This document shows, piece after piece, positions 3,429 through 23,496 of a stretch of 23,496 bases of DNA. Under the pieces are notes generated by a model. It was given only the letters and a program-made list of their open reading frames with translations. It was not told the origin of the DNA and did no database searches. The position numbers were made by a program, and so were the translations under genes. The DNA is from a virus, in the IMG/VR virus record IMGVR_UViG_3300036857_000123, positions 1 through 23,496 of that record, one strand, 5' to 3'. Within the stretch, counting starts at the first letter, position 1. Every line of letters begins with the position of its first letter.

Positions 3429-6275
3429 TTAATTCGCCGTTATCGTGTCGGGCTCGCGCGTGATCTCGCGCTCGACTGTCGTGTTGCCCTCGAACACGCC
3501 GCCGGATTCGTGTTGGACCTTGATGCCCGGTCGGCCGCGGACGTTGACTCGGAGCCTGATGCGCGATTGCCGCGCGCGCTGCGCGAGTGAGGGGCGATCG
3601 AGGCCGGCATCGTCGACCGGGTGCAGCGGCGTGCCGGCATCGACATGCGCGCCGGGACGCAATCCGAGCGCGGTTGCCGGGTTCGTCGTGCCGCGCTGAA
3701 AGGAGGTGCTTGCGTTGCCGCGTCGATCGAATTCGCTCCACACCGGATTCGGCCGACCACCCGGCAGGAATTGATGCACCTCCTCATAGTGCAGATGGCC
3801 CCTGTTGATGATGCCCAGCGATTGGCCCTGCTGCACGGTCTGGCCGGACTGCACCAGGCTCGGGCCGTGAAAGGCATAGCGGCGGAAAATGCCGTCGCTG
3901 CCTTTGACCACCGCGTAATGGCCATAGCCGCCGGGATTGTTCCCGACCCACGTCACGACGCCATCGATCATCGCGACGGCATGGCTTCCGTCCGGCGCCT
4001 GCCAATCGGTTCCTGAATGCGGCCGGCCGCCAGGACGCCCGGCGCCGTAATGTGAGCGCGATCCGCCTACGAACGTGCCGGTGATCGGCGCAACCAGTCC
4101 TCCGGACTCGACCGTTGAGCCAGACGCCGGCGCTGCGGGCACCGCCGGTGCCGTCGCAGGACGATCGCCGCCTTGCTCGATCTGACGCTGCTGGTTTTCG
4201 GCAAAGCGTCGGCTGTCCTCGTGGGTGTATTCGCGGCCGTCGCGCCGGCCTTTCCAAAAGTTGTAAACCTCATTCGTGCCGGGCACTTTAATGCGCCCGG
4301 GCCCGCGCACATTTGGATCGCTGCCGCTGCCTTGATCGGTTCGCCCTTTGATCAGGTTGCTGCCGCCGGCGACCGCGTCGAGCGCGCTCTGATAAGCTTC
4401 CTGCTCGGCCGGGCCAATCGCCCTGCCCTGCGCGATACCCCTGTTGATCGGGCCATAGAATCCGCTGTGCAGCTCTTGTTTGATTGTGTTGCCGACCATC
4501 ACCGAGCGATTGATGAGCGCCTCGAGCGTGGCAACCTTGCCGAGCCCGCGCGGGCCGGATTCGGTCGACAGCATTTGCATGACCAGCCGTTTGAGCGCCG
4601 GATCGCCATTGATTTCGGCCATCCGGCTCGCGCGCTGCGCCTTGAGAAATTCGTTACCGGATAGCCCGGCCGCAGCCTCAGCATCGGCGCGCCGCCGCTG
4701 ATCGCTATCGCCGCTATCGGCCCGACCGCCGCCTCCGCCGCGCGGAAAGCGCGTCCGGGTGCCTCCGCCACCACCACCTCCTCCGCCGCCTCCGCCGGGA
4801 ACTCCGCCGCCTCCGCCGCCCGAGAGGCGCGTGGCGAAGCCGGCAAGCCCGCCGGCGCCGGCTTCGGAGGTCGTGAACGCCTGCGCCGAGAGGTAGTTGT
4901 TGAGCTCGGCCATGCGGACGGTCGTTTTCTTGACGCTTTCGCCCAGATCCAGGACGAACTCGCGATCCTGCCGGAGCGAGAGCGAACCGGACTGCCCGTG
5001 CGTCGAGGGCGTGGGCGGGGCCGTGCCAGCCGGCGGCGTCAGCGGCGCGCTTTGAGGGAAGCGGCTCCTCCGCCTCACCGTCACGGTCGGGAGCTCGATC
5101 GCGCCCGGTCCGCCAGGAATAAGCGGCGCCTCGTCGGCCTTGGCGGTCGAGGGCGCGAGCACCGCGATGCCAGCGATGGTGGTGACGACCCACATGAGGC
5201 TGCCGATGCCGCTCAAGCCTTTGGCGAAGTTGCCGAGGAACGCGACGAAGCCGATCGCGACCAGCCCCTCGAGCACCGGCGTCCATCCGCCGAATTTCTC
5301 GCGCACGAACTGATCGAGCGCGACCACGATCGGCTTGAGCTTGTCGAAGCCGGCGATCAGCGCATCGATGGCGCCCGTGATGCCCTCGACGAATGCCTTG
5401 ACGTCCGCCGACTTGATCGAGGAGAGCCAGGCGGCGAATTGATTGACGAGCTCCCGCCCGGGCCCGCGAAGATAGTTCTCGATGCCGAGCGACATCTCCT
5501 GGAACGCCGGCAACAGCACGGTGCCGAGCGTCGTCTTGATGTTCTCCCATGTGCGATTGAGGTTGACCCATTGCAGATTGTATTCCTTGAGCGCCTCGGT
5601 TGGGGCCTCGCTGATTTGCGAGAGGCCCTTGACGTTGAACATCTCCGACCAGGCGATCGACGATTGGCCGAAAATGTTCTTGATCGAGACTTGCGATTGC
5701 GTCGCCATCCCGCGCGTCTGCCGCGCGAGAAACCCCATCGCCCGCTCGATTCCGTTCCGGCCTTGAACGAGGCGGATCAGCTCGGCTCCGAGCTGCGCTC
5801 CGCCTTTGCCTCTCGCGAGCTCCTGGAATTCGTGCGCGCGCGTGCCCTGCACGCGCATGTTCTCCAAATGCTTAGCGAGCGACTCGACGTTCGAGCGCGC
5901 CTCCGCCTGGCTCATGCCGAACACGCGGCCGGCATCGGAGAGCTCGCGCAGCCGTTCGGCAGTGATGCCGATCTCCCTTGCAGCGTAGTGCAGCTGCAGG
6001 CCCGCTTGCGCGAACTGGTTCATGGCCTGCGCGGCCCGGGCGAGCCCGGCGAGCATGCCGCCGCCGACGAAGGCGCTGATTCCAGTTATGCCTAAGAGGC
6101 GAGTGAATTCACGGTCGACGCCCTTGGACAGCCCTTCGAGCGCCTTCCACTGCTCGGTGAATTGCGGGAACCGGACGGCATGATCGCGCGAGCGCAGCTC
6201 ACGCTTCATGCGCTCGTACTTCTCGGAGAACTCGTCCGTTATCAGGACTTCGATGAGCGGCGTGCCGGTCGGCAT
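3429..6275 (-). CDS. Second tape-measure protein with M23 peptidase domain
   Basis: A 948-residue tape-measure protein, the ruler that fixes tail length and enters the cell ahead of DNA. Residues about 75-290 are paralogous to the upstream gene (both carry an NL-R-WENIKTT segment, here 238-249, followed by LLPAF). Hydrophobic helices lie around residues 330-375. A glycine-rich linker (about 485-515) leads to a segment at about 542-690 with an ESG (Glu 572) and a later INR, somewhat like SleB/transglycosylase wall hydrolases; that call is weak. Residues about 725-830 form a LytM-type M23 metallopeptidase with the full zinc set: HSGTD (His 753, Asp 757) and HLH (827-829). This would cut peptidoglycan crosslinks during entry. 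The ATG lies 4 bases after the first tape-measure stop; no strong binding site is seen, suggesting coupling. Confidence 0.88.
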   Translation of the reverse strand: MPTGTPLIEVLITDEFSEKYERMKRELRSRDHAVRFPQFTEQWKALEGLSKGVDREFTRLLGITGISAFVGGGMLAGLARAAQAMNQFAQAGLQLHYAAREIGITAERLRELSDAGRVFGMSQAEARSNVESLAKHLENMRVQGTRAHEFQELARGKGGAQLGAELIRLVQGRNGIERAMGFLARQTRGMATQSQVSIKNIFGQSSIAWSEMFNVKGLSQISEAPTEALKEYNLQWVNLNRTWENIKTTLGTVLLPAFQEMSLGIENYLRGPGRELVNQFAAWLSSIKSADVKAFVEGITGAIDALIAGFDKLKPIVVALDQFVREKFGGWTPVLEGLVAIGFVAFLGNFAKGLSGIGSLMWVVTTIAGIAVLAPSTAKADEAPLIPGGPGAIELPTVTVRRRSRFPQSAPLTPPAGTAPPTPSTHGQSGSLSLRQDREFVLDLGESVKKTTVRMAELNNYLSAQAFTTSEAGAGGLAGFATRLSGGGGGGVPGGGGGGGGGGGGTRTRFPRGGGGGRADSGDSDQRRRADAEAAAGLSGNEFLKAQRASRMAEINGDPALKRLVMQMLSTESGPRGLGKVATLEALINRSVMVGNTIKQELHSGFYGPINRGIAQGRAIGPAEQEAYQSALDAVAGGSNLIKGRTDQGSGSDPNVRGPGRIKVPGTNEVYNFWKGRRDGREYTHEDSRRFAENQQRQIEQGGDRPATAPAVPAAPASGSTVESGGLVAPITGTFVGGSRSHYGAGRPGGRPHSGTDWQAPDGSHAVAMIDGVVTWVGNNPGGYGHYAVVKGSDGIFRRYAFHGPSLVQSGQTVQQGQSLGIINRGHLHYEEVHQFLPGGRPNPVWSEFDRRGNASTSFQRGTTNPATALGLRPGAHVDAGTPLHPVDDAGLDRPSLAQRARQSRIRLRVNVRGRPGIKVQHESGGVFEGNTTVEREITREPDTITAN

Positions 6276-6279
6276 TGCT

Positions 6280-8484
6280 TTATTGCGAGTTGAACAGTGA
6301 AGGCGCGGCCCGGTCGGATCCGGTCTTCGCCATCTGCGGCGTGTATTCGATGATGTGCGGCGTGAACAGGTTGCTGCCGCTGCTCCTATCGGCGGACTTC
6401 GACGATGAGACGTCGATGTCGACGGTGGCCGAGCCCTCGAGCGGGCCGCCGTCGGCGCCGGTGCCGGCGATCAGCGAGCGCGGACGCGTGAGCGACGCGA
6501 GCTCGTCCGTATCCCAGCTTGTTCGCGGGGCAAACGAGTGCGGGGCGGGATGGCCGGCGTCGAGCCTCTGCCGCCACAGCACCTCGCTCAGCGAAAGCGT
6601 CGTCGGCTCGACGTGAAACAGCGGTTGATTGGGCCGCCCCTTCATTCCGGTCGGGAACGTCTTGGGCGTGTAACCCATCTTCTCGGCTTGCGCCGCCGAC
6701 ACGTCGACGATCTTTTGGGTTCTGATGCCCGGGCCGACGTCGGTTTGCCGGACCTTGTATTGCTCGCCGGTCGGTGTCGTCAGCAGGAACCATTGGCCAA
6801 GCGTTTCCGTTGAGGCGAGCGCGATGCCTTGTTTCGATTCCGGCACGTCGAGCCCGTTGCTGCCCGGCTTGTCCATCGGGTCGACCCAATTGTACCTGCC
6901 CGCGAAGTTCGCGAACCAGCTGCCGAGTCCCCAGCCCTCGGTGACGCCGCTCAAGATCGAGCCCTTGCGAGGCGGCAGCGGCGTCGCGCCGGTGGTTGGA
7001 AGTTGATAGCCGCTCCTGCCTGCCTTGCCTTCCGGGCCGCCGGGCAGCAGATAAGCATTGAGCTTCTCGAGCTCGTAATCGAGCGAGGCGAATTGATTGG
7101 TGAGATCGCGCTTGGCGGCGCGATCGAGCGCGAGATCGCCGAGTTGAATGCCGCCGGCCGGAGGCTCGAGCGCGCCCTGCTTTTGCGGCCCCTTGCCCCA
7201 CAGATCAATGTTGCCCTTGAAGATGTCTTTCAGGATATCCCAGATCAGCCCGGGCAATGCTTCCGGGCCGCCGCGCGGCGCCTCGGGATGTTCCTTGAGC
7301 GTCTGTTCGCGTTGCTTTCGCAGTTCCTCCCGGATCTCTTCCTTGCGGGTGAGCAGGGTGACCAGCGCGGTGATCACCGCGGCATAAGGCGCGATCTTGC
7401 TGAGCGCGGTTCCCATGCCGAACAGGAACGCGACGATGCGAGTAGCGACCAGCGCCTCGAATACCCTCGGCCAGCCGATTCCCATCGCTTGCACGACGGC
7501 GTCGGCGGCAGCGAATGCGGAGGACAGATCGTCGACGATCTTCGCGGCGCCGGCGCCGATTGCCTCGAGCTGCTTGCCGAAGCCGCCCGAGCTGACCCAT
7601 TCCGTGAGCGCGGCGATCCAGCCCTTGACCCGCTCGACGAGCTTGGCGCCCGATTCCGACTGCAGGTATTTGTCGATTGCCGCATAGAGGTCCTTGAACG
7701 CCGGCAATAGCGCAATGCCGATCGTGGTTTTGATGTTCTCCCACGATCGCTGCAGATTGATGTTGGCGAGATTGTAATCGACGAGCTGATCGCGGTTGAG
7801 GTGGATCAGCGGCCGCAGGCGCGGGAGGATGCGCGCCAGATCGGCGACGGCAAGATTTCCGAAGCCCAGGAAGCGCGAGAAATGCGCCTGCGTCTCGCGC
7901 GACATCCCGCGCAGGCGGGTGATCAAGAGCTGCAATGCCCGTTCCGGCCCCTCGGTCCGGTAGGTGCGCATCAACTCGTTGTAGAGTTGGACGCCGGTGC
8001 CGCGGACGCCGCGCGAGAGCTCCTCGAACAGTCGCGATTGCGTGCCCTTGTGGAACGCCTCCTCGAGCGTCTCCATGGCGTGACTGATGCCGGACTGCGC
8101 CTCTTGCTCGCTCTCGCCGAGCACGCGCAAGCCGTCGGTGTAGCGCTCGAGCGCATCGACCGAGATGCCGAGTTGTTGCGCCGTGTAGTGCGACCGGATG
8201 CCGGTCTGCGCAAATTGGCTGAGCGATCTCGAGGCGGCGGCCAGGCCGGCGATGACGCCGCCGGCGCCGAGGATGCCGCCGACGCCAGAGAGCATAGCGA
8301 GCGAGCGCAGTTCGCGGCCGACCTTCTGAGCGGCCTGGCCCATGAGGCCGAGGTGCTCGCGCGCCTTGTCGGTGCGCAGCTCGTTCAGGCGCAAGACTTC
8401 GGCAACGGTCTTGCGGACCTGCGCCGAGATTTCGTCGCGCAGCGCGAACTTTATCTCGATGACTTGGTCGGTGGCGTTGGCCAT
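6280..8484 (-). CDS. First tape-measure protein with C-terminal double-psi barrel-like module
   Basis: A 734-residue tape-measure protein placed directly after the tail chaperones, the standard site for this gene. The N-terminal 60 residues are charged and helical; about 75-290 form the block shared with the downstream paralogue, including NLQRSWENIKTT at 243-254. A hydrophobic stretch (about 340-380, VFEALVATRIVAFLF and following) may be membrane-active. Residues about 508-627 look like a double-psi beta-barrel of the RlpA/lytic type: LGQWFLLTTPTGEQYKVRQT, then TDVGPG, then IVDVSAAQAEKMGY, the pattern in which the aspartates are usually functional. This suggests a peptidoglycan-active or sugar-binding tail-tip module; catalytic activity is inference. 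ATG follows the TAG of the chaperone extension with no gap (TAGATG). Confidence 0.85.
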   Translation of the reverse strand: MANATDQVIEIKFALRDEISAQVRKTVAEVLRLNELRTDKAREHLGLMGQAAQKVGRELRSLAMLSGVGGILGAGGVIAGLAAASRSLSQFAQTGIRSHYTAQQLGISVDALERYTDGLRVLGESEQEAQSGISHAMETLEEAFHKGTQSRLFEELSRGVRGTGVQLYNELMRTYRTEGPERALQLLITRLRGMSRETQAHFSRFLGFGNLAVADLARILPRLRPLIHLNRDQLVDYNLANINLQRSWENIKTTIGIALLPAFKDLYAAIDKYLQSESGAKLVERVKGWIAALTEWVSSGGFGKQLEAIGAGAAKIVDDLSSAFAAADAVVQAMGIGWPRVFEALVATRIVAFLFGMGTALSKIAPYAAVITALVTLLTRKEEIREELRKQREQTLKEHPEAPRGGPEALPGLIWDILKDIFKGNIDLWGKGPQKQGALEPPAGGIQLGDLALDRAAKRDLTNQFASLDYELEKLNAYLLPGGPEGKAGRSGYQLPTTGATPLPPRKGSILSGVTEGWGLGSWFANFAGRYNWVDPMDKPGSNGLDVPESKQGIALASTETLGQWFLLTTPTGEQYKVRQTDVGPGIRTQKIVDVSAAQAEKMGYTPKTFPTGMKGRPNQPLFHVEPTTLSLSEVLWRQRLDAGHPAPHSFAPRTSWDTDELASLTRPRSLIAGTGADGGPLEGSATVDIDVSSSKSADRSSGSNLFTPHIIEYTPQMAKTGSDRAAPSLFNSQ

Positions 8485-13976: not shown

Positions 13977-16685
13977 TCATGGCGCGGTCTCATCCTGGAA
14001 TTGCTCGAACAAGCCCCGGAGCTCGAGTGCCGGCCCCTTTTTGCCGTTAGACAAGAGCGGGACGGCGACGTAGCGCGCGGGGTCCAGCGACCAGCCTACG
14101 ATTGCCGGAGCAGCTTCACCCTGCGGCCCGCGCTCTCCACGCTCGCCCCTCTCGCCGCGCGGCCCCGGCTCGCCGGACGCTCCGTCCTTGCCGTTCTTGC
14201 GCTGCACGAGGAGTTGCCAGCCCTCGCCAGGACATGGGCCCGGGTCGTCCTTGCGCGCGATGAACGAGCCGCCGTCGCGGGTAACGATGTCGAGGAAATT
14301 GTAGCGCTCTGCTTCCTTGAAGACGCCGCGGGGCTGCGGCCCGGTGCCGTCCATGCCGCGAAACGCGAGACCGATCCAATCGGGATGCGGCGGCATCTGT
14401 CCGGTATCTTTGGTCGCCTGCCAGGTCGAGCCCTTGTGCGCGACCACCTCGCCCTCGTAGTAGACGCGTTCGGGCTTGAACGCTTTCACGATCGGTAGTT
14501 TTCCGGGAGCGCCTTGAGGGCCAGCGGGTCCCGTGGGGCCCACGTTTCCCTTTTCGCCTTTCTCGCCGCGATCACCTCTCTCGCCGTCGACTCCGTCACG
14601 ACCAGCTTGACCAGGAGGCCCGGCTTCGCCGCGCTCGCCTTTCTCTCCGCGTTCGCCTGGAACGCCAGCCTCACCGGGAGCGCCTCGTTCGCCTAGCGGG
14701 CCGGCAGGACCAGGAAGCCCAGGCTCGCCGTCGGAACCTCGCGGCCCGGGTTCGCCGTTCCTGCCAGGAGGGCCGGGCGGTCCTTGCGGGCCCGGATCAC
14801 CCTGGGGACCAGCAGGCCCAATACTTCCCGGCTCACCCTTGTCACCCTTTTCACCCTTCTCGCCGGTTTCGCCTTTCTCCCCGCGCTCGCCTTGCGGGCC
14901 CGGATCGCCTTTCTCGCCGCGTTCGCCACGTTCGCCTGACGCGCCCGGATCGCCTTGTGGACCCTGCGGCCCCTGCGCGCCCACTTGGCCTTGCTTCCCG
15001 CGTTCACCTGGCTCGCCGCGCGCGCCCGCATCACCTTGTGGACCCTGCAGCCCCTGCGCGCCAGCTTCGCCTTGCTCCCCGCGTTCACCTCGCTCGCCAG
15101 GCGCGCCGTCGAGACCTCTCTCGCCCTGCGGTCCAGGATCGCCTTTCTCGCCGCGTTCGCCGCGCTCGCCTGCTTCTCCGGGCGGGCCGTCGAGACCTCT
15201 CTCGCCCTGCGGTCCAGGATCGCCTTTCTCGCCGCGTTCGCCGCGCTCGCCTGCTTCTCCGGGCGGGCCGTCGAGACCTCTCTCGCCTTGCGGGCCGGAA
15301 GCGCCTTTCTCGCCGCGTTCGCCGCGCTCGCCTGACGCGCCCGGATCACCTTGTGGACCTTGCGGCCCCTGCGCGCCAGCTTCGCCTTGCTCCCCGCGTT
15401 CACCTCGCTCGCCAGGCGCGCCCGCATCACCTTGCGGACCCTGCGGCCCCTGCGCGCCAGCTTCGCCCTTCTCGCCGCGTTCGCCGCGCTCGCCTGTTTG
15501 TCCCGGCGCGCCGTCGAGACCTCTCTCGCCCTGCGGTCCAGGATCGCCTTTCTCGCCGCGTTCGCCGCGCTCGCCAGGCGCGCCCGGATCACCTCGTGGA
15601 CCATGCGGCCCCTGCGCGCCAGCTTCGCCTTTCTCGCCGCGTTCGCCTGCTTGTCCCGGCGCGCCGTCGAGACCTCTCTCGCCCTGCGGTCCAGGATCGC
15701 CTTTCTCGCCGCGTTCGCCGCGCTCGCCAGGCGCGCCCGGATCACCTTGCGGACCATGCGGCCCCTGCGCGCCAGCTTCGCCTTTCTCGCCGCGTTCGCC
15801 TGCTTGTCCCGGCGCGCCGTCGAGACCTCTCTCGCCTTCCGGACCAGGATCGCCTTTCTCGCCGCGTTCGCCGCGCTCGCCTGCTTGTCCCGGCGCGCCG
15901 TCGAGACCTCTCTCGCCCTGCGGTCCAGGATCGCCTTCCTCGCCGCGTTCGCCGCGCTCGCCAGGCGCGCCCGGATCACCTTGTGGACCCTGCGGCCCCT
16001 GCGCGCCAGCTTCGCCTTGCTCCCCGCGTTCACCTCGCTCGCCAGGCGCGCCTGCATCACCTTGCGGACCCTGCGGCCCCTGCGCGCCAGCTTCGCCTTT
16101 CTCGCCGCGTTCGCCACGCTCCCCTGACGCGCCCGGATCGCCTTGTGGACCCTGCGGCCCCTGCGCGCCCACTTCGCCTTGCTTCCCGCGTTCACCTCGC
16201 TCGCCAGGCGCGCCCGGATCACCTTGTGGACCCTGCGGCCCCTGCGCGCCCACTTCGCCTTGCTTTCCGCGTTCACCGCGCTCACCAGGCGCGCCCGCAT
16301 TTCCATGTGGACCAGGCGGCCCCTGCGCGCCAGCTTCGCCTTTCTCGCCGCGTTCGCCGCGCTCACCAGCTTGGCCAGGTGCGCCATCCTTCACAAGCGC
16401 AAGCCGATCGGCGACCTGTGCGTTGATTTCGAGCATCCTCTGCAACGATGCCGCGTCGAACGCCGCGCGCATTTCGACGAGCTGCACCCGGAGCTCGGCG
16501 ATAGTGGCGCTCGATTGCGCCATCGCCGCCCGCGACTGCGCCTCGATGACTGCGAGCTCGCGCTCCCATTGCCGGCGAAGCACCGCAATAGTGTGGCCGA
16601 TGGCATCGCGGACCGCGTCAGAGATCAAGCCGTCCAGCGAAGGTGTCAGCGGTGTGGAGGAAAGTTTGACAGAGCCGTCGGACAT
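13977..16685 (-). CDS. Collagen-like structural protein with C-terminal carbohydrate-binding-like modules
   Basis: A 902-residue protein. Residues 1-100 are a helical, possibly trimerising head ([14 protein letters not shown], then [15 protein letters not shown] and a second heptad-like helix). Residues about 101-729 are nearly unbroken Gly-X-Y collagen triplets (about 210), rich in [12 protein letters not shown] and GEKGEA and lacking large hydrophobics. The C-terminus has two CBM5/12-like modules ([18 protein letters not shown] then PDWIGLA, about 738-778; [17 protein letters not shown] then GWQLLV), a short second collagen run, and a tail [18 protein letters not shown] then LRGLFEQF. A trimeric fibre binding host polysaccharide is the likely role. 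ATG 16685 has GAAGGA 10 bases upstream and overlaps the portal end by 68 bases. Its place between portal and connector is odd for a fibre and suggests a head or neck appendage. Confidence 0.85.
14497..16385 (-). repeat. Collagen-coding tandem repeat array
   Basis: About 1.9 kb of imperfect direct repeats built on 9-base Gly-X-Y units and longer blocks. A block containing CCGTCGAGACCTCTCTCGCC on the plus strand recurs seven times between about 15100 and 15920. An 81-base unit (27 residues, 9 triplets) is repeated head to tail around 15120-15290. The high identity between blocks points to recent expansion and contraction by recombination or slippage, so length is likely variable between strains. 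Confidence 0.9.
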
Positions 16686-18072
16686 TTTCGTCGTAGTCCT
16701 TCGGTGGTGGCGCCGGTGGCGAGGGCGGCGGAGCAGGTGCAGCGGGCGGATGCGGACCACTGGATGTTGGTTTTGCGCCGAGCCCTGCCGCGGCGCTCAG
16801 GGGCACAACCTGCTGCTGGACGCGCGGCTCGTCCCCCTGATCCACGCTGTCGAGTCCTTCGCGGTTGCGTGCCTCGTTGGGCGAGAACACACCACCTTGC
16901 ACCCCGCGGGTCAGCGCCTCGATCCGATCCCTGAATTGCGAGCGCAGGAGCGCCGAGGTGTCGAGCTCGAGGTATTCGTGGGGTTGGCCCTTCAATTGGA
17001 ATAGTTGGCCGAACGCCTCCTCGATGTGGTTGAGAGCAAAACCGAGCCCTGTCCCGATCCAGAACTGCATGAGCGCTTCGGTCGACGAGAACGGCGCGCC
17101 GCCGGAGAGACCGAGAACCTGCAACGGGATGCGGAACGCGAGCGCGATCTGCTCACCGGAAAGCTTCATGACCTCGGCCACCTGGGCGTCCTTGCCTGGC
17201 GTCGTCCAAGGCTGGACCTTTAGGCCGGCGGTCAAGATGGGCGTGCCGCCTGGCCCACAACCGTCGAGGCCTTTGGCCTGTTCGTTCCAGCGCTGGCGTA
17301 GCTCGTCCACCTGCTCGCGATTGAGCACGAGATCGGTCGAGAGCACGGCGGATGGCCGCGCCTGGTTGATGTAGAATTGGATTTGCTGGCGCTTAATCGC
17401 GTCGGTCTGCGCGATATCGGCGAGGGCAGCCATTAACGGCGTCTCGCCTTTCAGCGGAAACGGAAACTTGTGGTCCGTCGTGTGCAGGCGGATATGGAGG
17501 ACATCGCGCTGCGGCACGATCAGTTGCGTGTTGCCGATCCGGCCTAGTTCGAGGCGACGCGCGATGATGTCGTTGCCGGCCAGGTGATAGAAGATCTCGC
17601 CATTGACAGCGAGCTGTGGCGTGCACTGCCGCGAATCCATCAAATGAAGGGAATCGACCTCGAAGCGGGAATTGCGCAAAGCTAGCGCATAGGCGTTGCC
17701 TTCCAGATAGAGGTAGCGCGTCGCGTTTAATAAGAAATCGGAGATTGATTGGTAGTCGTTCGGCTTGCGCAGGATGCGCGAGAGCGCGGAATTGTTGACG
17801 CGGTCGCGACCGCCTTTGTCGTTCGAACGCCAGTGATCGCCGGGGCACATCGCGACGGTCTGTGCATACGCGGAGATGCAGGCCTCCACCATGGCGGAGC
17901 GCTGCCCAGTGCCGCTCGGATCCATCCCAAGCTGCCAGAAATTCAGCGGCGCGCCGTCGGGCAACCAACCCCCGCTAAGCGGCAGATAATATGGCCCCGG
18001 ACGAAATGCGCCCTCGGTGGCTTTTGCCACCAAGGGCCCGATGACGCGAGCGATCAGCGCGCGTGCGTTCAT
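16618..18072 (-). CDS. Portal protein (HK97 gp3-like)
   Basis: A 484-residue portal of the phage_portal / HK97 gp3 family, the dodecameric ring at the head vertex that DNA is pumped through. Family landmarks are [20 protein letters not shown], then [69 protein letters not shown], and [20 protein letters not shown] followed by [11 protein letters not shown]. After the family core the end is proline-rich ([20 protein letters not shown]) and overlaps the next gene by 68 bases. ATG 18072 overlaps the stop of the preceding small gene as ATGA. In most HK97-like phages the portal follows the terminase directly; here it comes after both capsid genes. Confidence 0.95.
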
Positions 18073-18419
18073 GAGTCTTTCTTCTCGGCCGAGGGCGAGT
18101 GTTGCGCCGCCTGCGGTCGCGGTTGCACCGTGCGCGTCTCATAGCTGCCAGACGGCCGCTTGGCCTCTTGCGTTCGCTGGTGCTCTTGTGATCGCTGCTG
18201 GCGGTGCTCGCGTTGCTCGGAGCGATAACCGCTGGCAGCCGGAGCGGTCGAGTCTTGCTCCGGGCTGCCATCCGGCTCCTTGTCCGTGACATGCTCGCCC
18301 ACCGCGGCGCGGTCGTTTTCCTCCTGCGTCGGCGTCGGCTTGTAGACGTCAAATGGATCGACGCGCGGATCGCCGACCTGACCGGCGGACGTGGTGCTTT
18401 GCGGTTTGATCTCTGGCAT
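18069..18419 (-). CDS. Small disordered charged protein between capsid and portal
   Basis: A 116-residue protein rich in Gln, Glu, Arg, Ser and Pro with hardly any bulky hydrophobic residues. It starts MPEIKPQSTTSAGQVGDPRV and later has SEQREHRQQRSQEHQRTQEA. No domain is recognised and it is predicted by eye to be disordered. A very good AGGAG sits 7 bases before the ATG at 18419, and the stop overlaps the portal ATG (ATGA), so it is a real, well-expressed gene whose translation likely feeds the portal. A scaffold-like or head-completion role is conceivable from position and composition only. Confidence 0.65.
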   Translation of the reverse strand: MPEIKPQSTTSAGQVGDPRVDPFDVYKPTPTQEENDRAAVGEHVTDKEPDGSPEQDSTAPAASGYRSEQREHRQQRSQEHQRTQEAKRPSGSYETRTVQPRPQAAQHSPSAEKKDS

Positions 18420-18512
18420 GGATTTCTCCTGGAGGCTGCGAGTTGCGATGATGCCTATACTTCGTGGCTCGCGACGAGTTCGCCGGCGGGGACGATCCGG
18501 CAGGATCACCAT

Positions 18513-20708
18513 TCACCAGGTGACGTTCTGCACCCACGCGACCATGCCGGATCGTCGCATGGTCCAGTTGAGGTTCATGATCATACGCAGAGCCAGCGAA
18601 TCCGTTTGGAATAGAGATCGCACTGGCGCCGAAGCGGGGCCGCTCGGTCCCGGCGCAATCGGTGCGGGTGCCGTATCTTCTTCATGCAGAGTTGCCTGGT
18701 CGCTCATCTCGAAGCGCGGAGCGTCGGCACCGGCGGTGACGAAGTCCGCGGCGTCGATGAGGATAAGAGTCCTCGGCGGGACCGTGAAGGAGTCGATGAA
18801 CGCAATGCCGTCGAGGTTGCCCGCATCGATCTCGGCGCGGAAGGGAAAGACTCCGCTTTGCGAGACGATGACCATGCGCAAGCGATGCAGGTCGCCCGGA
18901 TTTAGCAGCCACACCGGATTACGCACGTTGCCGAGCGTGCTCGTAATAAGCGCGGAGACCAATTGACTGATATCGCCGATCGCCGCATCAAGTCCACCGC
19001 CGGCGGTCGCGGTGAGCGCCGCCACGCCGTTGAGCAGACCAGCGGGACGAACCACGGTCGCCGGATTGGCGTCGAGCAGCACCGAGTCGATCGCAACCGT
19101 GGTGTCCTCTTGGACGGCATCGCGCAGCAAGCCCTCGATCGCGGGCGTGCTGTAAACGTCCATCTCTCTGGTCCAGGTCGTAATGACTGCGAGTTTTTTC
19201 GGGGTCAGCGCCTGGGTCGTGAACAAGCCCTGGCGAACGGGGATCGGTTGTCCCTCACCGACGAACGAGCCGGCGATCGTCGGCGTACGTGCGCGGGTCG
19301 GGATGTTGATCTTGCCAGCTCGGCCGAAGCTGAGCGCAAGCCCGCGCGCGGAGAGCCGATTGAACACCGCTTTGGGCATCAAGAGCGGCATGAAGTCCGT
19401 CCATGTCTGCTGGACGAGTTCGGCTGCCCATCCAACCACGCTGGTCATAGCGGGGGCTGAGGCGGCGCGCAGCACGAGCTCGCACATGCCCTTGGTGCCG
19501 TCGTCCTCGTAAACCTTGAAATGGCGCCCGATCATCAGGCGCGCTTCCTCGATCGGCTTGCCCCAGGATTTCGCGGCGTAGGCGACCACGGCGGCGCGGA
19601 TCATGTAGTCGAGCGGATCGTATTCCTTTCCACGACTCTTGATGAGGTACGGCACCTCGATCGCGGTGCGCTGCTCGCCGGCGCCGTTGTTGTTCGGCGG
19701 CTGGTAGACGGTGAGGTCGCGCTGTTGGCCGTTGCCCCCGCCGCTGGTGCTCACGCTCGTGCCGGCGAGGATCCGCTCGGACGTGACCATATTCTCGCGT
19801 TGCTTGGTGAGCGTCGCGAGCCTAGCGTTGAGATCGTTCGACCGCTGCAGGTCGGCGTCGCTGACATTGGTGTCGTCAACTTTCTCCCAATGGGCGTTTA
19901 GCTCGTCCTGCGTGGCGACGATCCGCCCCTCGAGTTCCTGAATCCTTTGAGCAAGAGGCGTCATGGCTCTGCTCCTTCCATTTGCGTGCCTCTGATTGCC
20001 GTGCTCGGCGTGATATTCCCGCGCGCGGGTTTCCTCGGTTCTCTTGCCGTGCTCGGCGAAGACGAGGTCCATGGTGGCGCGGGAAATGTTGAGAGACTTC
20101 GCGACGGCCAGCGCGTTGGGATTCGCGGGCACGGCTACGAGCGAAGTCTCGACCAGCTCCGATTTGGTGTAACGGGTGCCGCCCCAAGGGTCCTTCTCGT
20201 CGATCGGCTGATGCTCCAGCGGCTTGAAGCCGACGGACACCGCTTTGAGGATCCCGGCCTGCACCAGGCGGCGGATCTCGTCGATGCGATCGGACGTTCC
20301 CTCCGGTGCGAGCTCGAGCCCGCCGCGTAGCTCCTTGTGCTCGACCCGCAGATTGCTCCACTTGCCGACGACGAATTTAGGGTCATGCGAGAAGAGGGCG
20401 ACGGGGTTGCGCTTGAAATCGGCGAGCTGCCAGCCTTCGACCTCGATGATGTCGCCGTAGCGGTCGGGCGTCGCGTCGGAGAGCACGAACTCGAGCGCAT
20501 CGCCGGCGCTCTTGTCGATGTGCAGCTTGTGCATCAGGGGCGGAGTCATTTGGTCCGCCCAGGCCACCTCGCACTCGTTGCGCGCGTCGCTCTCGCTCAT
20601 GTTCTCCTCGTCCATGAGCTCGCCGATGCAGCGGTCCATGAAGTCGCTGCGCGACTCGCCGTCCATGGGTGCTGGTGCTTGCTTGGCCTTGTGACGTTTG
20701 ATGGGCAT
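18513..20708 (-). CDS. Prohead protease fused to HK97-type major capsid protein
   Basis: A 731-residue fusion. Residues about 60-215 form an S78/HK97 gp4-type prohead protease: FVLSDATPDRYGDIIEVEGW, catalytic His 108 in LFSHDP, Ser 158 in AVSVGF, then ELVETSLVAVPANPNAL. Residues about 249-312 form a charged coiled coil like the HK97 delta (scaffold) domain. Residues about 345-731 are the capsid fold, with AMTSVVGWAAELVQQ, FVGEGQPIP, NPATVVRPAGLLNG and an FQTDSLALRMIM C-terminal segment. The protease normally matures the head by removing delta domains. The start at 20708 has GGAGG about 10 bases upstream. An internal ATG at 19964 with an ideal AAGGAG could produce capsid without protease. The capsid part is a paralogue of the preceding gene. 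Confidence 0.93.
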   Translation of the reverse strand: MPIKRHKAKQAPAPMDGESRSDFMDRCIGELMDEENMSESDARNECEVAWADQMTPPLMHKLHIDKSAGDALEFVLSDATPDRYGDIIEVEGWQLADFKRNPVALFSHDPKFVVGKWSNLRVEHKELRGGLELAPEGTSDRIDEIRRLVQAGILKAVSVGFKPLEHQPIDEKDPWGGTRYTKSELVETSLVAVPANPNALAVAKSLNISRATMDLVFAEHGKRTEETRAREYHAEHGNQRHANGRSRAMTPLAQRIQELEGRIVATQDELNAHWEKVDDTNVSDADLQRSNDLNARLATLTKQRENMVTSERILAGTSVSTSGGGNGQQRDLTVYQPPNNNGAGEQRTAIEVPYLIKSRGKEYDPLDYMIRAAVVAYAAKSWGKPIEEARLMIGRHFKVYEDDGTKGMCELVLRAASAPAMTSVVGWAAELVQQTWTDFMPLLMPKAVFNRLSARGLALSFGRAGKINIPTRARTPTIAGSFVGEGQPIPVRQGLFTTQALTPKKLAVITTWTREMDVYSTPAIEGLLRDAVQEDTTVAIDSVLLDANPATVVRPAGLLNGVAALTATAGGGLDAAIGDISQLVSALITSTLGNVRNPVWLLNPGDLHRLRMVIVSQSGVFPFRAEIDAGNLDGIAFIDSFTVPPRTLILIDAADFVTAGADAPRFEMSDQATLHEEDTAPAPIAPGPSGPASAPVRSLFQTDSLALRMIMNLNWTMRRSGMVAWVQNVTW
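19962..19977 (-). promoter_or_regulatory. Internal ribosome binding site and start for free capsid protein
   Basis: Within the protease-capsid frame, AAGGAG (19972-19977) lies 7 bases before an in-frame ATG (19964-19962). Translation from here gives a 483-residue protein beginning MTPLAQRIQELEGRIVATQD, the normal start of an HK97-type capsid protein with its coiled-coil delta domain. This would let the phage make far more capsid than protease from one frame. Confidence 0.6.
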
Positions 20709-20810
20709 AGCGCGAGTCCTCCCGTTGCAGGGCAGCCTCGAGTCGGTTGTTTTCCGCTTGGCGGATTCGGTTCACCGCCCATCAGGGATGAGGGTCGGCC
20801 CAGCCCACAA

Positions 20811-20848
20811 CGCCGCGGTTGATTGGCCTCGATCGCGGCGCTTTTTTT
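20811..20848 (+). terminator. Plus-strand terminator-like hairpin between capsid genes
   Basis: CGCCGCG (20811-20817) pairs with CGCGGCG (20834-20840) across a 16-base loop and is followed by C and seven T on the plus strand. No plus-strand gene is seen here. It lies in the 209-base gap between the two capsid genes, which holds no convincing ORF. On the sense (minus) strand an ACACC/GGTGT hairpin lies nearer the first capsid gene's stop. An antisense block or structured spacer is possible. Confidence 0.4.
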
Positions 20849-20917
20849 CAGGTGGGGGACACCCCGTGAGGAGGTGTTGGCGGAGCCTCCCCCGCTTTCC
20901 CCGTCGACGAGGAGCAA

Positions 20918-22018
20918 TTAGTTCCAGGACGGCGTCAGCCACGCCACCCCGCGAGGATCGCGCAGCGCCCACGTCGCCGGCCAGCGCACCTTGAGGGCGA
21001 TGCTGTCGGTCTGCCATAGCGAGCGTGCCGGTCCCGCCACCATGAGCGGCTGCGGGCTTGAGTCCTCGTGCAGCGTCGCCGCCTTCGCCGTCTCGATGTC
21101 AGGATCGGCGCTGATCGCGGCGACGAGGGTTGTGGGCGCGATGGCGACCAGATCGGCGCCGACGGCGGCCGACGGCAAGACCTGGATGAGCCGATTCTCG
21201 CGATCGAACTGACGATAGAAGCGGCTGTTCATCGTGACCGCACGACCCGCACGGGCCACAAGGATGAACGGTCCCCCGCCGCCAACGGCCGAAACCGAAC
21301 CGACGAGCGTAGAAAAGTCCGCGAGGACCGCCTCTATTGCGTTGGAGTCATTGCTTGCGGTTAGCGCCGCGATCCCGTTGCGGATGCCTGCGGGCCGCGC
21401 GGCAGATGCGGCGTTGGAATCGAAGAACGCGGCGTCGAGCGCCAGGCCAGCGGAACGGACGAGCGCGTCCCCGATCAGCGCCTCGGCGTTGGAGCTCTCG
21501 ATCATCTCGCGCGTCAGCACGACGATGCTCCCGATCTTGTACGGGCTCAGCGTCGGGCCGGCGGTGTTGAGCTGGCACACCGGGATCGGTTGCCCCTCGG
21601 CGACGAAGCTTGCGTACTTCGGATCAGTGATGAGGCCAGGCACCATGATCTGCCCGGCCCCATTGAAATTCAGGACGAGCCCCTCGCGGATCAATTGCGC
21701 CGCAGCCGATGCCGGGCCCAAGGCCTCGACCGCGTCGGCGGTGACCTTCTGCGCGAGCTCTGCTGCCCAGCCCGTGACCGTCGTCATCGCGGGGGAGGTC
21801 GCGGCTCGCTCGACGAGTTCAGCCATGATGCGGTCGCTCGGCCAGTGCCGCGCGACGATGTCGGCGCACGAACGGCCGGTGACCTGGCCGATGACGCGCA
21901 TCACCGCCATTCGCACGAACAGGTTGCCCGGTCGCAACGCCAGCGCGGACGAGCGCGGGCGAAAGCTGCTTTGCTGATCGCGTTGGCGATTGAATGAGAC
22001 TGGTTCGAGGAGCGTCAT
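20918..22018 (-). CDS. Second HK97-type major capsid protein paralogue (no protease, no delta domain)
   Basis: A 366-residue protein clearly related to the capsid half of the downstream fusion: both have AMT-V-GWAAEL, a V-EGQPIPV segment, R-AG--NG-AALTA and ATLHE followed by RSL-QTDS-AL. It has only about 65 residues before the shared part and lacks the coiled-coil delta domain. The frame opens at a TTG at 22051, but the ATG at 22018 has GAGG 8 bases upstream and gives MTLLEPVSFNRQRDQQSSFR; I prefer it. It is the first gene after the terminase and has its own structured leader. It could be a second shell subunit, a penton or decoration-like variant, or a decaying duplicate; intact length and sequence argue against decay. 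Confidence 0.9.
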   Translation of the reverse strand: MTLLEPVSFNRQRDQQSSFRPRSSALALRPGNLFVRMAVMRVIGQVTGRSCADIVARHWPSDRIMAELVERAATSPAMTTVTGWAAELAQKVTADAVEALGPASAAAQLIREGLVLNFNGAGQIMVPGLITDPKYASFVAEGQPIPVCQLNTAGPTLSPYKIGSIVVLTREMIESSNAEALIGDALVRSAGLALDAAFFDSNAASAARPAGIRNGIAALTASNDSNAIEAVLADFSTLVGSVSAVGGGGPFILVARAGRAVTMNSRFYRQFDRENRLIQVLPSAAVGADLVAIAPTTLVAAISADPDIETAKAATLHEDSSPQPLMVAGPARSLWQTDSIALKVRWPATWALRDPRGVAWLTPSWN

Positions 22019-22188: not shown

Positions 22189-23496
22189 TCATCCGATGAG
22201 TGACGCGATGTCGATTGGCGCGGCGGTGCGATCGCGGGAGCGCAACCCCATCATCATCGCCAGCGCCACCGCGCCGTCGATGCGGAAGCGCGCCTTATCC
22301 TTATCGAGTTTGCGATTACCAGCAGGGTCCATGGTCGCGACCGCATTAGCCACATTCCAATTGAGCGCCGGGTTATTCGGATGGACGAGTTTCTCCTCGA
22401 CAATGGCAAGCTCGAGCGCGTCGATCGCCGGGCCCATGCTGGCGAAGCCCTGGCCCCACGGCACCACGCGCAAGCCGTCGCCCTTTTTGCCGTCCTCGAA
22501 TGCTTGCAGACCAATGCGATCAAACTCGCGCAGAAGATCACTCATCCGCCATCGATCATAGGCGAGCGCCTTGACGCGGTACTGCTGGCAGAGCTCAGCG
22601 ATCTTGGTGGCGACCACGGCGTGGTCGATGCTCTTTCCGGGGGTCGTGAGTAGGTGACCCTCGCGCGCCCACCACAAATAACGGTGGTTGCCGGTGCCGA
22701 AGTCCCGATCGGAATGGGCGACCAGATGCTCGGCCGGCTTCCAGATGAACGGCACGACGCGGCAAGGATCGTCTGCCGAGCCCATCACCAGCGCAGTGAG
22801 GTCGATTACGCTCGAGAGGTCGAGCCCGAGATAGACCTCCTCGCCCGGTCCGAGCGAGATGTTGCCGGCGCGCGCCATCCATTCAACGCGCGAGATCAGC
22901 GTTGCAGTCGGCGAGACGCGCTGGTTTAGGAAGAGGTTGCGCACCTTCGGCTCCTCGGCCGGCATGCGCTTAGCCTTTCGGATCGCGGCGACCAGGTCCT
23001 CGCGATCGCGAAAGATATCGAGCGCCGGGTTGGCCTTCCGCCATTGTGCCTCGTCCTCGAGGTCGCAATCGTCGTCGGCCGCGTGCAAGTGGCAGACGAT
23101 GCTCGCATCGACACCAGAGATCCCGTCGTCGATGAGCTTCGAAAGGATGTGCTCGGGATCGTTCGATTGCGTGCTGATGACGATGAACAGCGGCTCCTCG
23201 CGGGCCCCAAACGAGGTGTCGAGCACGTCGTAGAGCTCGCGGTTTTTGGCCTGCGCCAGCTCATCGTAGATCACGACGCTCGGCACGTAGCCGTGCTTGG
23301 TGCCGGCCTCTGCCGAGATCGCGCGATAGATCGAGCCCGTGGCTCGTGCCAGCATGGTCTTGGTCGACGGGATGATCTCGATTTTTTCCATCAGCACGGG
23401 CTCGAGCTCGACGATCTGGCGCGCGAACTTGAACACGATCGCTGCCTGGTCGCGATCATTGGCGGCGCTGTAGATCTCCCCGTTTGGTATCGCCTC
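22189..23496 (-). CDS. terL: Terminase large subunit (HK97-like), C-terminal 435 residues, cut by window edge
   Basis: The ATPase-nuclease that packages DNA into the prohead. The frame runs in from the right edge; the visible part opens EAIPNGEIYSAANDRDQAAI, the segment that follows Walker A in this family, so Walker A and the true start lie outside. Walker B is VVIYDE (visible residues 74-79) with the coupling motif IVISTQSND after it. The nuclease domain begins VYLGLDLSSVIDLTALVMG, with further acidic residues in ALAYDRWRM and a final Asp in RIDGAVALAMMMG. All expected acidic positions appear present. It is followed by capsid genes rather than by the portal, which is an unusual order. Confidence 0.95.
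   Translation of the reverse strand, partial: EAIPNGEIYSAANDRDQAAIVFKFARQIVELEPVLMEKIEIIPSTKTMLARATGSIYRAISAEAGTKHGYVPSVVIYDELAQAKNRELYDVLDTSFGAREEPLFIVISTQSNDPEHILSKLIDDGISGVDASIVCHLHAADDDCDLEDEAQWRKANPALDIFRDREDLVAAIRKAKRMPAEEPKVRNLFLNQRVSPTATLISRVEWMARAGNISLGPGEEVYLGLDLSSVIDLTALVMGSADDPCRVVPFIWKPAEHLVAHSDRDFGTGNHRYLWWAREGHLLTTPGKSIDHAVVATKIAELCQQYRVKALAYDRWRMSDLLREFDRIGLQAFEDGKKGDGLRVVPWGQGFASMGPAIDALELAIVEEKLVHPNNPALNWNVANAVATMDPAGNRKLDKDKARFRIDGAVALAMMMGLRSRDRTAAPIDIASLIG

Follow-up and report, generated by a model that had tools for sequence, protein, structure and literature searches.

Two paralogous HK97-fold capsid genes, one fused to a protease, in a group of Bradyrhizobium-type phages

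Introduction

In most HK97-type phages a single protein forms both the pentamers and the hexamers of the head, and it has long been asked what directs a single fold into a pentamer. The DNA analysed here (the window) comprises the complete IMG/VR record IMGVR_UViG_3300041956_000128, 23,496 bases long, in which a first-pass annotation had noticed two capsid-like genes in tandem. This raises the question of why a phage would keep two versions of a shell protein, and whether both are parts of one shell. We followed this up with homology searches, structure prediction, searches for relatives, and phylogenetic and selection analyses.

Results

The genes of interest lie on the minus strand and are ordered, in the direction of transcription, as terminase large subunit (TerL), MCP2, a fusion gene, a 147-aa ORF, portal, a collagen-repeat protein and a head–tail adaptor. 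Farther 3' are genes for tail sheath, tail tube, two tape-measure-like proteins and the baseplate, and this gene set is that of a contractile-tailed phage. TerL (22189..23436, recognised by Pfam) is truncated where the record ends; its counterpart in a related locus, L004, is a 554-aa ORF. MCP2 (20918..22018), which has a GAGGT Shine–Dalgarno-like site 5' of it, encodes a 366-aa protein, and the fusion ORF (18513..20708) encodes 731 aa. The 147-aa protein (18069..18512) contains a short segment, residues 58–83, that recurs in relatives, and it is followed by the portal gene (16618..18072; Pfam and PHROG). The collagen-repeat protein between portal and adaptor is long (13977–16760; Pfam Collagen, E 1e-115). 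The tape-measure-like genes are adjacent (3429–6275 and 6280–8484), and the first of these proteins has a peptidase-like C-terminal part.

The window was first read as carrying tandem HK97-fold paralogues, and several methods confirm this. In BLASTP, residues 1–361 of MCP2 aligned with residues 332–726 of the fusion at 33% identity (146 bits, E 5e-43), and the landmarks listed in the first-pass annotation (GWAAEL, EGQPIP, RPAG..NG, ATLHE and QTDS.AL) all aligned in order. Both proteins matched the PHROG 617 'major head protein' family (fusion E 1e-77, MCP2 E 4e-19). Pfam recognised Peptidase_S78 (residues 99–202) and Phage_capsid PF05065 (residues 433–643, E 7e-9) in the fusion; MCP2 itself matched no Pfam family. 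The AlphaFold2 models, for which alignments of 74 (MCP2) and 63 (fusion) sequences were used, had a pLDDT of 83 for MCP2 and 73 for the fusion, and each showed the HK97 topology of N-arm, E-loop, spine helix and A-domain. The top Foldseek match in the PDB was the R4C capsid (8gta) for both MCP2 (E 7.5e-11) and the fusion (E 8.9e-13), and the leading matches of both were HK97-fold phage capsids and encapsulins.

The fusion is thus an S78 protease, a delta domain and a capsid protein (MCP1) in one ORF. The protease domain covers residues ~70–205 (20094..20501), as judged from Pfam and residue conservation; H108 and S158 are invariant in 63 relatives and are likely the catalytic residues. The capsid half runs from the N-arm to the C-terminus, from about residue 365 (18513..19616; Pfam and the model). 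Between the two, the model contains long helices at residues 252–276 and 284–319 (19752..19955), which form the delta domain. These helices have no counterpart in the MCP2 model, in agreement with the earlier observation that only the fusion copy has a delta domain, and MCP2 lacks the protease as well. Residue 1 of MCP2 aligns with residue 332 of the fusion, which is in the disordered linker after delta. Since processing is expected in this linker, MCP2 resembles a subunit that has already been processed, beginning at roughly the point where processed MCP1 is expected to begin.

The claim that one copy is fused to the protease holds for the 731-aa ORF, but it is probably not the whole account of what this gene makes. 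The capsid half retains a start of its own. There is an in-frame ATG (M249, 19962..19964) where delta begins, with an AAGGAG Shine–Dalgarno-like site (19972..19977) 7 nt before it. A homologous Met is present in 83 distinct upstream sequences, single-copy phages included, and is missing from one relative. The codons 5' of it vary and the Shine–Dalgarno-like element moves relative to the reading frame. The mean anti-SD energy was –6.4 kcal/mol at M249 compared with –2.2 kcal/mol at other internal Mets and –4.9 kcal/mol in synonymous recodings (100 sets, set means –5.5 to –4.4). In two related outgroup phages where protease and capsid are separate genes (L313 and L314), the capsid gene starts at the homologous Met. 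From these comparisons of sequences and gene starts, the fusion ORF probably yields two products, protease-delta-capsid and a free delta-MCP1 of 483 aa, and the simplest reading is that the fusion would have kept the ancestral capsid start. This is similar to lambda C/Nu3, a nested protease–scaffold gene where an in-frame internal start in the protease gene gives a second product; the fusion likewise has a conserved internal start codon and ribosome-binding site. Unlike in lambda, the predicted internal product is a delta-capsid protein and not a separate scaffold.

We rejected the idea that MCP2 is unique to the window record, because relatives occur in viral contigs. They were found at 60 loci with 42–100% identity, including dozens of soil viral contigs at 42–56%, and a profile search recovered far more of them than a search of viral contigs with the single sequence. 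The single-sequence MCP2 search of genome contigs gave no match; an alignment-based search of these contigs gave eight loci. One is a prophage of Bradyrhizobium stylosanthis BR 446 (L142) with an intact pair of MCP2 and fusion. Among GenBank phages there was no relative of MCP2 and only distant relatives of the fusion, and we found no report of a phage with such a capsid pair in the open-licence literature. The paired capsid genes are a feature of a large group of Bradyrhizobium-type phages that is uncultured.

MCP2 and the fusion occur together at 72 distinct loci, counted after removal of duplicate fusion sequences. For loci having both TerL and the fusion, 37 distinct ones have MCP2 and 47 do not, and all 37 with MCP2 have the order TerL-MCP2-fusion. 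Loci with MCP2 have one or the other of two kinds of TerL (36–41% or 68–78% identical to that of the window), and the pair is kept with either kind and despite the insertion of other genes inside it. On a tree of the fusion capsid half, the two-copy state needs three changes (free tree) compared with 35 when labels are shuffled, and a tree constrained to a single two-copy clade had a higher likelihood (p-AU 0.83). Therefore, the arrangement probably arose once. For a recent duplication within the two-copy lineage, lnL was 13 higher (p-AU 0.74; 0.49 when proteins from genomic islands, described below, were added), so that AU tests do not reject this as the possible source of the MCP2 gene.

Both capsid genes are under purifying selection. 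In close pairs with dS above 0.1, dN/dS was approximately 0.03–0.32 for MCP2 and 0.05–0.22 for MCP1. At 27 positions the residue is at least 80% conserved inside each family and different between MCP2 and MCP1; such family-specific sites include a segment of the E-loop, the start of the spine helix and the A-domain. MCP2 also differs from MCP1 by its shorter N-arm and by the loss of ~13 A-domain residues. The E-loop and A-domain make contacts within capsomers. Pairwise distances for the two proteins correlate (Spearman 0.59; the pairs are non-independent). The evolutionary rate of MCP2 is about 1.7 times that of MCP1. In the distinct loci that we examined, the MCP2 ORF is unbroken except where a contig ends. 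Subfunctionalisation after duplication, one of the outcomes proposed at the outset, is supported by a second copy that is conserved, selectively constrained, marked by residues of its own and tied to one group on the fusion tree.

In three relatives the MCP2 ORF has ~310 extra N-terminal residues (L019:1640–3667, L025:3655–5697 and L034:4996–7008); the extension in L034 matches PHROG 2563, a family of unknown function. Additional genes often accompany the pair. A ~400-aa TPR/glycosyltransferase-9-like (GT) protein is encoded at 61 loci (some contigs are counted more than once), mostly between MCP2 and the fusion. We considered this ORF as a further capsid paralogue and rejected it on the lack of profile similarity. 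A ~210-aa class I methyltransferase-like (MT) protein is encoded at 39 loci and has mostly the same location; the stretch L015:1307–3116 is an example of where the GT and MT genes lie. Neither family was found in the window. These two proteins might modify the shell. A third capsid paralogue, MCP2b, is present in about a dozen related contigs (L225:3949–4953, L113:2121–3176, L056:4622–5641 and L026:2885–4255 among them), and in L225 the complete order is TerL-MCP2-MCP2b-GT-MT-fusion-portal. On another fragment, GT and MT genes precede MCP2b (L233:2236–3789), the portal gene comes directly after it, and no fusion was seen.

Five loci in Rhizobiales genomes have one MCP2-like gene each, in what appear to be islands: L143/L316 (L143:8632–10089), L309 (8342–9439, minus strand), L311 (9165–10475), L312 (8952–10451) and L315 (6187–7302). 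Profiles recognised no terminase, protease or portal within the stretches read at these five loci. Three of the five have an AAA_25 replication-type gene 5' of the MCP2-like gene, the L309 island has an integrase and a RepC-like gene, and two of the island genomes also carry a single-copy prophage of the fusion-bearing family; B. cytisi CTAW11 is a strain that has an island with a lone capsid gene as well as a related prophage. In the tree that we built, MCP2, MCP2b and the island proteins form one group (SH-aLRT 88), in which the island proteins branch at the base and the phage MCP2 proteins are nested among them; the island-protein tree has long branches and other origins were not rejected (p-AU 0.41–0.49).

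Discussion

Paired HK97 paralogues kept over long evolution suggest a shell of two proteins. It is quite probable that MCP2 co-assembles into the shell, and its placement in pentamers is about an even call. Taken as a whole, the account we lean towards, by a modest degree, is that MCP2 is a dedicated delta-less subunit that assembles together with MCP1, most likely as pentamers. Because the delta domain presumably acts as the scaffold, MCP2 would not be able to build shells alone and would be drawn into proheads that the delta domains of MCP1 nucleate. There it would take a fixed position, most likely the pentamers, and MCP1 would form the hexamers. The fusion gene would supply full-length protease-delta-MCP1 together with the free delta-MCP1 from the internal start, the latter providing most of the hexamer subunits, and the fused protease would cut away delta during maturation. 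In its anatomy MCP2 resembles the established second HK97 paralogues discussed below: its identity to MCP1 is low, delta is missing, the N-arm is shorter, and the E-loop and A-domain have changed. Its sequence would fit a pentamer, a fixed hexamer position or a conditional subunit alike. Single-copy relatives manage without MCP2, and therefore MCP1-type proteins can form both capsomers there.

A mixed shell where a delta-less subunit relies on its partner, as was suggested on first inspection, appears to be the best reading, and there are experimental precedents in T4 gp24 and SaPIbov5 Ccm. In T4, gp24 is a vertex paralogue of the major capsid protein gp23 (PMC5694885), so that, as here, a phage has two paralogous HK97-fold shell proteins of which the second has diverged. 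By contrast, gp24 has its own propeptide, which is cleaved by gp21, whereas the MCP2 model has no visible propeptide or delta helices, and therefore we do not file MCP2 as a member of the gp24 family. Also, gp24 is a known vertex protein, whereas MCP2 would be a putative one. Our searches revealed no sequence kinship between the T4 proteins and the capsid proteins of the window. SaPIbov5 Ccm is a homologue of the phi12 CP, 24% identical to it, with a short delta domain and a short N-arm; it is confined to pentamers, is unable to build a shell by itself and alters the size of the head (PMC5052747, PMC8569155). MCP2 is likewise a low-identity (33%) homologue of its partner with a reduced N-terminal region and a shorter N-arm; the delta domain that is shortened in Ccm is wholly missing in MCP2. 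Ccm comes from a satellite and redirects the size of the head, whereas MCP2 is a phage protein whose gene lies in the head operon beside that of its partner. The cassettes of PHROG 617 in phages such as Salmonella phage FSL SP-016 also have an S78 protease–capsid fusion and the order TerL-fusion-small gene-portal, but FSL SP-016, like 46 other loci, lacks a second capsid gene. As a further comparison, Family 2B encapsulins have two HK97-fold shell paralogues per operon, for which two-component shells have been proposed (PMC8346489); these are cellular nanocompartments with ~60% identity between copies and without protease or delta, unlike the pair in the window.

Other roles for MCP2 have to be weighed against this. 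Its faster evolution than that of MCP1 and a fragment at a contig end in L062, where similarity is lost in the C-terminal part, could be taken as signs of a decaying or selfish duplicate with no role. Repeated breakage in relatives, which had been named at the start as the mark of decay, was not seen; ORFs are intact except at contig ends, relatives keep both copies, and we rejected decay on this conservation, on dN/dS and on the 27 fixed family-specific sites, which leave it very improbable. It is unlikely, if less so, that MCP2 (with MCP2b where present) is a conditional switch of head size or shape that alters T-number or prolate length and is not in every shell. Ccm does turn prolate phi12 heads into small isometric ones via its pentamers (PMC8569155), some relatives have the third paralogue, and lone MCP2-like genes are in satellite-like islands, where size redirection is expected. 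However, at every two-copy locus checked MCP2 holds the place between terminase and fusion within the head operon, which fits a constitutive part, and two-copy and single-copy relatives overlap in the size of their sequenced contigs (these are not genome sizes).

The occurrence of related proteins in Rhizobiales satellite-like islands also bears on whether MCP2 is not a shell part but a factor that interferes with satellites or other phages, for instance by poisoning the assembly of foreign capsids. Capsid mutants of phi12 escape Ccm, which places capsid homologues in phage–satellite conflict (PMC5052747). We consider this role improbable, since a gene that has a fixed operon place and is strictly kept together with the fusion looks more like part of the virion than like a variable defence gene. 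The islands themselves resemble satellites whose sole recognised head gene would encode a Ccm-like capsid protein. A more speculative view, which we regard as doubtful, is that the delta-less paralogue is a family common to phages and Rhizobiales satellites, with MCP2 and MCP2b being satellite capsid-redirecting proteins that were domesticated, or the reverse, and now serve as an obligate corner subunit in a shell of two proteins. Should satellites have this type of protein too, specialisation of the shell would be linked to phage–satellite conflict.

Paralogous two-protein HK97 shells are already known, and this large uncultured phage group is a further variant of what is a rare arrangement. 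A two-protein shell in these phages would bear on how a pentamer is specified: close relatives with one, two or three capsid paralogues, one paralogue being without the delta domain that drives assembly, provide a natural experiment in soil phages of a tractable host.
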